DNA of 64,000 bases. Origin: Saururus chinensis (lineage: Eukaryota; Streptophyta; Magnoliopsida; Piperales; Saururaceae). The notes below the pieces were generated by a model. That model was not told the origin of the DNA, did not search any database, and was given only the letters and a program-made list of their open reading frames with translations. Both the position numbers and the translations under genes were made by a program. Positions 58,798 through 63,590 of the stretch are shown one piece after another; positions within the stretch are counted from its first letter, which is position 1; the number at the start of each line of letters is the position of its first letter. Where the stretch lies: positions 13,519,893 through 13,583,892 of the forward strand of contig CP141149.1 in assembly GCA_035235625.1 (NCBI GenBank), read 5' to 3'.

Positions 58798-59186
58798 GAT
58801 AAAGAATAAAGAAAAAATTATATAAATAATATTAAAAAAAATTATTTACTATTTTAAATTATTTTAGAAAATAATTTTTAAAATAGTATTTATTTTTGCC
58901 ACGTAAGCGCCAACCAGGCAATTGGTGCCTGTGTGATTTTTTTTTAATTTTTTTTAGCGATTTCATTCTTTAAAAGGACGAAATCAGGTTTAAGCTGATT
59001 TTGTCCTTCTAAAGGACGAAACCGGGTCAAGTTTTAAAAACCCTTGACCCGATTTCGTCCTTTAGAAGGACGAAATCAACTTAAACCTGATTTCAGGTAA
59101 TTTTAGTTATGTGTTAAACTATTTTTGTAGTGTTTATAAAATATATAGTTGTTCTTTAAGTTAAATTATCTTTATATATTGTATAG

Positions 59187-59976
59187 GTTATTTGGCAGCC
59201 GTACTCACTGGAAGTATTGGCTACCTTACCTCTTCTATGTATTGACGGTCGAGACGTGTGGCTATCTCGAACTCCATTAATATGTTACGAGATAGTAGAG
59301 ATGTATGTGCCAGATCGGGTAATGCTCCAGTTTAACCTGGAGCAGGGGGTCTCACTGTCTCCTGTTAAGTATATCCACTGCATCACTCGACAGGGCCGCC
59401 ATAATACCGACTGGACATTACATCATGCGTCATATATCGCTTGATGGGAGGATAGGAGAGTCACTATTATCGGAGGGGAGATGGCTACGACATCGCGAGA
59501 TGTTCATAGCGCATATATACAATGGTATTTACCGATTACACGACAATATGTTTTGCCCCGCGACGATATAGAGGAGATGACATATCACCCTAGGGGAGCG
59601 TCTGAGGCAGCTTTGGTAAGTAGAACTTTGTTAATTAAAGCACATTATTTTTTTATATCTTATTAATTATTTATCTAACTTTTAAATTTTTTTGATAGCT
59701 TCGTCTAGCTCGACATACTTATACGCATTTGACTGACGCAATTAACACCTATACTTCGAGCGATGACTTATTAGCAGCATGTCAGTCGGTGATTAGGGAG
59801 CATAATTATGTCATTCGTAGCTTGCTACCACTTCAGTCGGTGATTACGGATGTCTCTAGAGATTATCCTATCCACGAGGCCGCTCAGACACCGCCGATGC
59901 ACTCTTCATTCCATGATATTCCATCGTCTTCAAGAGCGCATAGCTCTCCTCCTTGTTCATCATTTGGAGTCACTGC
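59187..59976 (+). pseudogene. Plant mobile domain (PMD, aminotransferase-like) gene, 5' exons
   Basis: Exon 59187-59615 follows a TATTGTATAG acceptor and reads 'VIWQPYSLEVLATLPLLCID', then the PMD hallmarks 'PLICYEIVEMYVPDRVMLQF' and 'DWTLHHASYIA'. A TGA at 59442 falls where a sense codon is expected before 'WEDRR'. A canonical intron (GTAAGT...TTGATAG, 59616-59698) leads to a second exon (59699 on, ARHTYTHLTDAINTYTSSDD) that ends in a Ser/Pro-rich tail split by the hAT-like element. The same domain occurs in MAIN/MAIL proteins and in transposon-linked 'protein phosphatase 7 long form homolog' genes. The N-terminal part of the domain is missing. Confidence 0.7.
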
Positions 59977-60169
59977 ATATAGGGCTGCCAATGGTACCCA
60001 TTTTACCGTTCTACCGTCTGTACCGTACCGTTAAGAAGTTAAATGGTATGGTTAAATTTATTCGATGGGTAAATAAGAGGATAATTTTATCCAACCGTTA
60101 TCTTAATGGAAGGTAATGGAAAAAGTTCTTCCATACCCGTTTATCCGTTACCCGTTTGTCATATTTAAA

Positions 60170-60174
<5 letters not shown>

Positions 60175-60264
<90 letters not shown>
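60175..60264. repeat. (TA)n microsatellite
   Basis: About 45 TA units in the hAT-like element. Frames through it are artefacts. Confidence 0.97.
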
Positions 60265-60267
<3 letters not shown>

Positions 60268-61181
60268 TCGTTAGTCTTAAGTGGTTTAATCTCAAAAGAG
60301 ATTGACTTATGATCTTTTAAAATAATCTTCATATCATAATTCACCACGGGGATTTACTCAATGAAAGATATCATTCAAATCCAAATATTTATTGTATTTA
60401 TTTAACTACTTTCAACAATTTACTATAATTGTTACAAGCTACTACTTGGAATATAATTTCCTCTTTCTAGCATTTCATATCTAACTCTATTTTTTAATAA
60501 AAAAATATTCATTTATAATTTATATTCTCTTAAACTAACTTCGCTTTGATGTTTCCCATTTGGTTGATTTGTCTAATTTTTATGGTCTCATTAGGTCACA
60601 ATTTATCTTTAATCATATGTGATAAAATTTTAACTAGCTATATAGACACTTTGTACAAAATATGTTTACAATTCTCAGGTTAATTTAGATTCAATTTTGA
60701 TAACTCAAACACATGAGTCTTTTTTATGTTTTTAATAAGTAAACTTGTGGAATGTTTGTTTGTGTAAGGAAATAATTGGTGGGTTTGGAGTAGGATTGTT
60801 AAGTGAGCTTTATTTTACTCTAGGTTAGACTCAAGTTAGCTCAAATCAAAGTTTGAACTTGGGCTAATAGAATGAAACTCTTGTTTGGCCCATCTCGATT
60901 AGCTTGGTTTGAGTGTTGGTTGGCTTAACTTTGAATGAGTGGTATAAGTGGTTTATTTTGAGATTTGGTATATGGTTGGAATAATGATTATATTACAAAT
61001 CATGTTTATATATGTGATTGCAAAATTTGGAATGATTTAGTTATTGAAATAGGTTGGAATCAATAAGTTTTGAATAACCAAATAAGTTTAAGTGAAACTT
61101 TATCTAAAATATGGGGAACTATTTTAAATTTTATAGGTGATGATGTCATCATCTAATCAACCTGGGTTGTCTTAACCCAGC

Positions 61182-61725
61182 CCAATGTTTTAAAAACCGG
61201 CCCGGCCATTGACCCAGATTCGTCGTCGGGCTGGGTTGATTGAGTTCAACCACCAGTCAGCCTGGGTTGACCCAATGTTCTCATATATTAGAATAAATAG
61301 AAAGTTAGGTACAATATTCACACAAAATCATTGTAACTCAGTTGGTAAGAGTGTAAATGTTATTTTTATCACGACATGGGTTCGAATCCCACCGTGGAGA
61401 TTTTTTTTTGAGCAATGTAAAATAGATAAATATTAAATAAAATAAAAATGTGTATAAACAAACTTGTTGTAGCCTGGTGGGTTAGGCTTGTTGATGGGCT
61501 CTCACAGAATGTGAGTTGGAAACCTGTCTCTAACATAAATTTTTTTCATGAGAGTATTAAACCGGTCTAGCCCGGGCAGCAGGTCGGTGGTTCAATCGGC
61601 CGGGTCGTATTGACCTGGTCGGGTTAACTTAACTAGTTAAAGTAGATGAACCTATCAAATTTATCAACTGGGTCCAATTGAGCCCAGTCGGACTTGCCGG
61701 GTCGACCTAGTTTTTAAAACATTGG
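61182..61725. mobile_element. 544-bp repeat with 16-bp perfect inverted ends and tRNA-like modules
   Basis: Perfect inverted ends CCAATGTTTTAAAAAC (61182-61197) and GTTTTTAAAACATTGG (61710-61725) are followed inward by related GGCCCGGCC/GACCCGGC words. No clear TSD was found. A third copy of the end, GGTTTTAAAACATTG, lies at about 61766. The interior holds tRNA-like promoter boxes. A MITE or SINE-MITE composite is possible. Confidence 0.5.
61331..61398 (+). ncRNA. tRNA-like (SINE head) sequence with pol III A and B boxes
   Basis: The A-box-like GTAACTCAGTTGGTAAGAG (61333-61351) and B-box GGGTTCGAATCCC (61378-61390) are at tRNA spacing, followed by a T run at 61400-61409. The acceptor arms (TCATTGT and CGTGGAG) do not pair, so it is not a functional tRNA. 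It fits the 5' head of a tRNA-derived SINE. Confidence 0.5.
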
Positions 61726-61994
61726 CCCGACTACTAATCTGGGTCAGGCTCCTTGGTTGGGTTTTAAAACATTGCTTAAAAAAGACACTAATGGATAATG
61801 AGCATCACTACATGTGGTCTCATTTTTGCTTTTAATGCACATTTAAATATAGATGGCTGTGAGAAGACAATTATTATTCTCACATTGGGATTCTTCTCAA
61901 ACAAGCACTAGATGGATGTCTTGAAGCTGGACTCATATAATAGGAAATAATTATTAAAAAATAAGTAGTTTATATATATATAGTCCCATTTATA

Positions 61995-62170
61995 TGAGCT
62001 CGGGCTCACGCGCTTCGGCGTGCTCCCGGGCTCATTCGGCCGTCGGATTTACATCCGACGGCCCATCAAACTCACGGGGCATTTAAACCAGTGAGTTTGA
62101 TGGGCCGTCAGATATAAATCCGACGGCTCAATGAGCCCGGGTGCACGCCAACGCACGCGAGCCTAGGCTC
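61995..62170. mobile_element. Foldback MITE of about 176 bp
   Basis: The ends GAGCTCGGGCTCACGCG and CGCGAGCCTAGGCTC are inverted. Inner arms GGCCGTCGGATTTACATCCG with CATCAAACTCAC, and GTGAGTTTGATGGG with ATAAATCCGACGGC, give a near-complete hairpin around 62076-62090. Confidence 0.75.
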
Positions 62171-62528
62171 ATATTAACTTTTTTCATATATATATATGCC
62201 TAATATATGTATCCATTTATGTTTCATGTTTAATCTTTACAATTTATTTGCAATAACTATAAATAAGAGTAGTAATGATATTAGTTTTTTACCTTAGTAA
62301 TATTTAATTAAGTGAATAAAAAAGAATTATTTTAGCTTTTTTAGCACATTTTAAAAAATGTAATGGATAATGGTTATCCGATTAACCGGCCGTTTATTAG
62401 TGGAAGGTACGGTTATGGAAGTACCTATACCGTTTACTTAACGGAACGGTTATGGATAAAGGTTTCTGAAATGGTTATGGTAATGGAATAGGTTATACCG
62501 TAACCGTATCATTCCGTTGGCAGCCCTA

Positions 62529-62790
62529 ACTGCATATGTAGCTCAGGCAGAGCCGATTTTATATTATAGACGACCTCGGGCAGCTCGTGTTGAACCATCT
62601 ATTACTTATGCGGAGCCGGAGCCAGAACTAGAGCTAGAGCCACATCCCGAGCCAGAGCCAGAGGTAGAGCCACATCCTGAGCCGGAGCCACAGCCAGAGC
62701 CAGAATTGACAGATCATGAGAAGGAGATCGTACAGCACTGTTGAGGCCGAGGTCGAAGACGAGGACGAGGTCAAGGCCGTAAGAGATTGT
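62529..62790 (+). pseudogene. PMD gene, 3' exon with Glu-Pro repeats
   Basis: The frame continues from 59976 after removal of the hAT-like element (TAY, VAQAEPILYYRRP). It encodes a (P/H)EPEPE-type repeat tract and LTDHEKEIVQHC, then a TGA at 62742. A further Arg/Gly-rich stretch (GRGRRRGRGQGRK) runs to a TGA at about 62789, so 62742 may be a premature stop. Arg/Gly-rich C-termini are common in PMD-type transposon proteins. Confidence 0.6.
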
Positions 62791-63359
62791 GATATTTGCG
62801 TTGTTTTATGTTCTCCCCTTGTGTGTAATATATTTGATAAATATTTATAATAATATTTGTTTTTATTTAATGATGTTAATATGCATTGAATGTGTGAAAT
62901 GAAATGGAACTTAGAATGGAATGTGTGGAATAAACAGGGATAGGGGTTAAATTTAAATTAAAATAGTTATTTTAAAAAAATTAACTTAATTTCATCCTTT
63001 AAAAGAACGAAATCAGTGTAAAACTGATTTTGTCCTTTAAACGGACGAAATCAGTGTTTTTCCGGCCAAAAGCGCGAAATCGGCTAAGTACGGTGATTTC
63101 ATCGATTAGAAGGATGAAATCGACTTAAGTTAATTTCGTCCTCCTAAAGGACGAAATCGGGTTAAGGGTTTCTAAAACTTGACCCGGTTTCATCCTTTAG
63201 AAGGACGAAATCGCTAAAAAAATTAAAAAAAAACCACGCTGGCACTAGCAACCTGGCTAGTGCCTGCGTGGTAGAAACGAACACCATTTTGGGAATTATT
63301 TCCCAAAATAGTTTAAAATGGTAAATAATTTTTTTTAATATTATTTATATAATTTTCCC

Positions 63360-63590
63360 AAGAATAAATTTAAAGAGCCACTTATAATGAGCTCGGGCTC
63401 ACACGGATCAGCATGATCCCGACATTGCTAACCATTGGATTTAGATTTAACAACATAATATCCTTCAACAAGGCAGGTAAGTTTAAATCACTCACTTGCC
63501 CCCTCTATTACTGCACATCATCGGACCTCAATCCGACAATTTACTATGTCATGCCCAAGGTGGTGCGCATGAACGTTGGCTTATATTTTT
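63360..63590. repeat. Direct repeat / MITE copy flanking the MULE on the right
   Basis: GAGCTCGGGCTCACACGG at about 63389 matches the end of the foldback MITE at 61995. The segment 63363-63510 is colinear with 58666-58797. The right part (63520-63590, ATCGGACCTCAATCCGACAA, ...GGCTTAT) is the inverted second half. Confidence 0.6.

Follow-up and report, generated by a model that had tools for sequence, protein, structure and literature searches.

Near the right-hand end of a 64,000-nucleotide stretch of the Saururus chinensis genome (contig CP141149.1, positions 13,519,893 to 13,583,892; hereafter the window, whose first letter is position 1 of all window coordinates) lies a transposon that carries a fragment of a gene, and this fragment has itself been split by a second transposon. 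The outer element, at 58811–63359, is a Mutator-like element (MULE), the fragment derives from a gene for a plant mobile domain (PMD) protein, and the inner element is hAT-like. The parts of the locus are as follows (TIR, terminal inverted repeat; TSD, target site duplication; strand given where it applies):

58811–63359, plus strand: MULE including the nested hAT-like element; a non-autonomous deletion derivative, from its TIRs, its TSD and its homology to elements of 6.4–7.9 kb with the transposase gene MURA and PMD
58802–58810: left 9-bp TSD AAGAATAAA, a perfect match to the right copy
58811–59094: left terminal/subterminal inverted repeat, with hairpin-forming repeats inside
59090–59096: internal-deletion junction, where the left subterminal repeat joins the last bases of a PMD exon (exon 4); from the start of the relatives' alignment
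59097–59186, plus strand: PMD intron 4, retained; from comparison with relatives
59187–59615, plus strand: PMD exon 5, with an in-frame TGA at 59442–59444
59616–59698, plus strand: PMD intron 5
59699–59979, plus strand: first part of PMD exon 6, ending in the TSD copy ACTGCATA at 59972–59979
59980–62528: nested hAT-like element with the TIR TAGGGCTGCCAA, inside PMD exon 6; from its TSD and TIR type; without a long open frame
62529–62792, plus strand: remainder of PMD exon 6, with the TSD copy at 62529–62536, Pro/Glu repeats, a TGA at 62742–62744 and the family stop at 62790–62792
63125–63359: right terminal/subterminal inverted repeat
63360–63368: right 9-bp TSD AAGAATAAA, a perfect match to the left copy

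What makes the outer element a MULE? Its TIRs consist of outer arms (58814–58954 and 63216–63356; 141 nt, 82% complementary) and inner arms (58997–59084 and 63125–63212; 88 nt, 93% complementary), and the whole is bracketed by the perfect 9-bp TSD, the usual length in MULEs, whose TSDs range from 8 to 11 bp. Long TIRs and a 9-bp TSD had been claimed for this interval by the first-pass annotation, made from the sequence of the window, and both are there; the arms also align well beyond the roughly 40 bp on which that claim had been staked. The same annotation described the MULE's only gene as a PMD gene with an intron. PMD is indeed carried by the MULE and is all that this copy retains, but what remains is a 5′-truncated remnant without a start codon, namely exons 5 and 6 of six together with introns 4 and 5, of a family that has both MURA and PMD. 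MURA and PMD exons 1–4 are missing here except for the last bases of exon 4: similarity to the PMD gene begins at 59090–59095 in 13 of the 15 relatives having that part of it, with the left subterminal repeat standing in place of what should lie upstream. Read with TGA as tryptophan, the remnant matches Pfam PF10536 at 68.6 bits (positions 240–346 of 347; cut-off, 34.9). Of its two premature in-frame TGA codons, as compared in one frame across the copies, the one at 59442–59444 is common only to L023 and the one at 62742–62744 only to L019. Since other relatives, for example L011 and L020, have arginine at the first of these positions, it is plausible from the aligned codons that this stop arose by a CpG change.

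The inner element measures 2,549 bp, ends in TAGGGCTGCCAA and TTGGCAGCCCTA, and is flanked by the 8-bp TSD ACTGCATA (59972–59979 and 62529–62536). That it splits the last PMD exon, and that the reading frame is exact across its excision, had both been proposed and both proved correct. In 13 of the 14 relatives with both flanks aligned, the sequence runs uninterrupted across the insertion point, the BLAST pieces at this empty site overlapping by 9–10 bases (the TSD and one or two more). The fourteenth, L020, lacks a short stretch at this point. We call the element hAT-like on the length of its TSD and the type of its TIR; a short TIR of the TAGGG type, which we take to be characteristic of hAT elements, fits its ends. 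Among open frames of at least 60 aa, none longer than 75 aa lies wholly within it, and a hAT transposase was not searched for. Its family spread recently. The right end has 39 other scored places at 94–99% identity (best 40 of 563 candidates), the one copy examined from another place matches it at 96.5% identity along 2546 bp, and four more right ends all stop at the identical base before unrelated sequence, with the terminal motif exact in three and changed by one substitution in L091.

Two further features lie inside the hAT-like element. A palindrome at 61989–62177, whose 90-nt arms are 84% complementary and separated by 9 nt, could belong to the hAT family itself or represent an older insertion; L089, a long copy compared with that in the window, shows a self-inverted stretch matching it. 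A tRNA-like stretch, GTTCGAATCC (61325–61400), holds what we presume to be A-box-like and B-box-like motifs and is possibly the remnant of a short interspersed nuclear element (SINE); ARAGORN made no call there.

The MULE belongs to a large family. A 290-base left-end probe yielded 2790 first-look candidates in the 516-Mb assembly (11 contigs), the best 40 of which were scored, and the 39 besides the window are 78–87% identical to the probe; genome-wide copy counts of this family are lower bounds. We examined 20 regions, representing 25 of these 39 matches and leaving out the other 14. Both TIRs were present in 16 regions, making 17 TIR-paired elements with the window. A perfect 9-bp TSD, scored as the best fit no more than four bases from either expected end, flanks 12 of the 17 (the window included; 11 at zero offset), while the other five comprise one perfect 10-bp repeat, one perfect 8-bp repeat and three elements without a TSD. 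Chance is excluded as the source of this pattern. The four regions without a TIR pair are L014, L015, L016 and L026; the last two hold one end each, and the first two are possibly both ends of a single 20-kb stretch.

Nine of the paired elements, each with the greater part of both genes, measure 6.4–7.9 kb; L010, at 9.4 kb, holds a nested retrotransposon. Their gene order, on a single strand, is an N-terminal exon with no Pfam match, then MURA, then PMD. In L009, MURA matches PF10551 (E 7e-19), PF03108 (E 6e-12) and SWIM (E 3e-5), none of it being found in the window copy, and PMD matches PF10536 at 164.6 bits (positions 1–179; curated cut-off, 34.9). The relatives' PMD gene has six exons of 99, 645, 83, 88, 429 and 543 nt (reference copies L020 and L009), which join in frame to give a 628-residue protein with Pro/Glu repeats and an RG-rich tail at its end, a reading that includes in-frame stops of the copies used. 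PMD is at least partly present in 14 of the 17 paired elements (L009, L010, L011, L012, L017–L020, L023–L025, L027, L028 and the window) and MURA in 11, all of which also have PMD; L017 and L027 keep solely the N-terminal part of MURA, and L018, L010 and the window copy have PMD without a MURA match. Neither gene is found in L013, L021 and L022 (1.2, 1.75 and 2.2 kb), the last retaining the N-terminal exon that normally lies upstream of MURA. The first-pass annotation had asked whether PMD is always present in TIR copies and whether any copy also has MURA: PMD is there in all but three of the paired elements, and MURA in 11. TIR copies lacking PMD, which that annotation had named as evidence against its reading, thus amount to 3 of 17, all of them short.

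These relatives bear on whether the window copy could be a Pack-MULE, that is, a non-autonomous MULE that transduplicated part of some host PMD gene independently of longer PMD-coding elements. It does consist of TIRs and a gene fragment and nothing else and, like Pack-MULEs, has no transposase. A Pack-MULE's fragment, however, is a separate host capture, whereas the one in the window belongs to the family's own gene set: PMD occupies the place usual for the family in 13 further paired elements, and 11 of these have all or some of MURA. As MURA-bearing relatives carry the same PMD, we rejected host capture for the window copy and regard it as extremely unlikely.

Do MURA and PMD form one protein? 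Of 14 loci scanned, 10 had a recognisable MURA 3′ end; in the remaining four the search pattern found no match. In all ten, MURA stops at, or a few codons from, one common position, and the PMD ATG follows on the same strand at a fixed distance, roughly 100 bp past the usual MURA stop. A MURA-PMD fusion protein as read was rejected, because the MURA stop precedes the PMD ATG in each of these copies. By our reading, simple splicing would yield no in-frame fusion either, and it would take unusual splicing to produce one.

The same pairing recurs across the genome. We scored the best 117 of 2740 candidates for PF10536 (N-terminal places), the best 124 of 3944 for the MURA core, and the best 150 of 1404 for a MAIN-like bait. 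A scored MURA lies upstream on the same strand, at a distance of 1565–1614 bp, from 22 of the 117 PF10536 places, and likewise upstream of 52 of the 150 bait matches (51 at 1475–1540 bp, one at 4848 bp; chance expectation, 0.14); on the opposite strand the count is zero in both searches. In random samples of places without a listed partner, PMD was found at the expected spot for 9 of 10 MURA places (pool, 48 of 72; L072 and L074 partial) and MURA beside 7 of 10 PMD places (pool, 20; L087 via a 31-residue match). Together, the genome-wide linkage and these samples establish PMD as part of the standard gene set of this MULE family, whose plan is MURA plus PMD.

Has PMD been maintained by selection? 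The family's PMD genes include two types, and we compared ten type-1 copies with L049, a near-open type-2 copy, using the ratio of nonsynonymous to synonymous divergence (dN/dS; Nei-Gojobori, with codon bootstrap intervals). The core exon, exon 2, gives a dN of 0.086, a dS of 0.618 and a ratio of 0.14 (0.09–0.22), or 0.13 (0.08–0.20) with a second type-2 copy, L024, as reference. Ratios are 0.22 (0.08–0.57) for exons 3 and 4 together, 0.31 (0.19–0.53) for exon 5 and 0.29 (0.22–0.36) for PMD as a whole, next to 0.26 (0.19–0.34) for MURA in six of the type-1 copies. A test of nonsynonymous and synonymous changes (N/S) shared among copies versus singletons is significant for MURA (p 0.001). From these alignments, PMD shows signs of purifying selection over the older divergence between type 1 and type 2.

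Several observations weigh against PMD as a gene kept by selection. Constraint is weak in exon 6 (0.54; 0.37–0.85) and in exon 1 (0.51; 0.19–1.51, a wide interval); the shared-versus-singleton test on PMD is not significant (p 0.43; 0.36 without CpG); and the ratio is 0.4–1.0 among close type-1 copies, where constraint is not significant, and 0.68 (0.44–1.13) for exons 5–6 of the long type-1 copy L020 against seven others. In the initial set of 17 PMD copies, which includes that of the window, every copy has at least one premature stop. L049 itself contains a single stop in MURA, although its PMD reads open in the longest frames, and the projected alignment gives its exon 6 two stops that are absent from the direct reading, so that this exon is less well aligned. 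Lastly, the most likely role of PMD, that of an accessory or anti-silencing factor, is one that we infer. Exons 5–6 of the window copy, compared with eight type-1 copies, give 1.04 (0.69–1.65), with no detectable constraint; as this interval overlaps that of L020, the two are not statistically distinct.

Could PMD then be a passive passenger, kept merely through its position between MURA and the TIR? Weak or absent constraint among close copies would fit, as would the fact that PMD-less short elements do transpose (L013 and L022 have perfect TSDs), but a core-exon ratio of 0.14 across the older divergence would not, which leaves this explanation very unlikely. Low ratios between the types and weak constraint among close copies point to selection over the older divergence and not in recent copies. 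The purifying selection that the first-pass annotation had proposed to look for is therefore visible between two old types and not significant among close copies.

The two genes do not share one history. In trees of 11 elements, the PMD of L024 groups with that of L049 (support 100), its MURA with that of L023 (97) and then L028 (100), and the MURA and PMD alignments each reject the other's tree in the approximately unbiased (AU) test (p 5e-58 and 4e-71). We take this conflict to mean that modules were exchanged between elements, likely by gene conversion or recombination as far as the trees can tell. A rival cause is the separate capture of a second PMD. On that account the family gained PMD repeatedly, with types 1 and 2 stemming from two host genes, the low dN/dS reflects host selection, and the conflicting trees record repeated replacement by capture; it draws on the conflict itself and on a type-1 versus type-2 dS that is higher in PMD (0.62, exon 2) than in MURA of the same elements (0.18). 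Both types are, however, alike in exon plan where seen, in their spacing from MURA and in the start of the first exon; L029, L037 and L044 are intermediate between them (PMD dS 0.18–0.24 to type 1 and 0.42–0.51 to type 2); and a midpoint-rooted tree separates 16 MULE-type PMDs from 8 of another PMD lineage with support 100. Repeated capture is accordingly unlikely in our view, and exchange between elements is the explanation we prefer.

Beyond the two reference types, L029, L037, L044, L047 and L048 have intermediate or divergent MULE-type PMD exons (dS 0.18–0.87 to those types), which suggests an older spread of PMD lineages within the family. The other PMD lineage (L030, L056–L067, L068) has been amplified separately and shares about 40% identity with the MULE PMD. 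It occupies over 30 scored places with identities above 85%; these are spread across many chromosomes, and some are fragments. At L068 (C5:4434000-4440000), a PMD of this lineage has a DC1 (C1_2) open frame nearby, and the 6 kb examined gave no MURA match. Twenty of the 117 PF10536 places were examined, 19 being MULE-type and one of the other lineage, while 18 further places from a search with the second lineage comprised 3 MULE-type copies and 15 nearer the other lineage. The list obtained with the MAIN-like bait appeared saturated with MULE-type copies, yet only 52 of its 150 matches are tied to a scored MURA. A host MAIN/MAIL gene was not identified among the best-scored places of the searches with PF10536, the second PMD lineage and the MAIN-like bait, and a PDB sequence search with one PMD exon returned chance matches alone (E 0.38 or more).

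Elsewhere in the window, a fragment of an Ulp1 protease domain (PF02902; 12390–12797, plus strand) scores 21.1 bits, just above the cut-off of 20.7; open frames for Ulp1 proteases are often carried by other MULEs. Elsewhere in the assembly, L094 (C2:29062692) holds what we take to be a plastid-derived trnL(UAA) stretch, with a monocot-like look too tentative to bear on lineage.

How does this family compare with known systems? PMD was reportedly described in a rice MULE by Babu et al. in 2006, a like association in a different genome. In VANDAL21, a MULE-class element, the VANC21 gene presumably lies beside the transposase gene. VANC is a different protein from PMD and has a demonstrated anti-silencing activity, where that of PMD would be conjecture. 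VANDAL21 with its silencing suppressor VANC21 resembles the present family in joining an accessory gene to a MULE-class element, and a review that mentions it raises the possibility that transposons deploy their own PMD proteins against silencing (PMC8616336). MULEs with PMD-C are reported from grasses and Amborella by Ikeda et al. 2017, who infer two captures from host genes and speculate on an anti-silencing role (PMC5418596); there as here, PF10536 is carried by a MULE together with a transposase. Capture of a silencing factor, one of the two readings offered by the first-pass annotation, is the view in print for such related elements. Their cases are called fusion proteins of MULE transposase and PMD, whereas here MURA ends in a stop about 100 bp ahead of the PMD ATG, and the window copy is truncated. 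Eudicots have mainly genic PMD-C (Nicolau 2020, PMC7156037). The host PMD proteins MAIN and MAIL1 act in silencing (PMC5418596, PMC7156037), MAIL1 being linked to Gypsy elements (PMC6419827); they share the plant mobile domain with the protein described here, theirs being host genes and this one a transposon gene. PMD-carrying MULEs are therefore already published, and the present family is another of that kind, whose PMD shows signs of selection. The literature searched, which leaves most subscription journals uncovered, contained no account of selection on MULE-borne PMD or of exchange between MURA and PMD.

Taken together, the window locus is very probably a dead and non-autonomous member of a MULE family with many copies, the longer of which carry MURA and a six-exon PMD in tandem, the latter once under selection. 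An internal deletion brought the left subterminal repeat up against the end of PMD exon 4, so that the TIRs and exons 5–6 are what is left; the deleted copy could still have been moved in trans by the MURA of relatives acting on its TIRs; it then decayed, and exon 6 received a hAT-like element of a recently spread family. The copy itself is ordinary transposon debris. For the family as a whole, PMD would most likely have an accessory function, aiding the element in working under, or evading, host chromatin silencing. A bolder version, which we consider possible though doubtful, has PMD as a selected accessory gene countering MAIN/MAIL silencing, for instance by presenting the host complex with a dominant decoy, and as an exchangeable cassette. 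If true, MURA lineages would have traded old PMD alleles, which an arms race with host silencing would lead one to expect. PMD proteins are host silencing factors, and why transposons carry them is a question already raised in print. With its thousands of first-look candidates, two PMD types, swapped modules and PMD-less derivatives, this family makes the anti-silencing idea testable.

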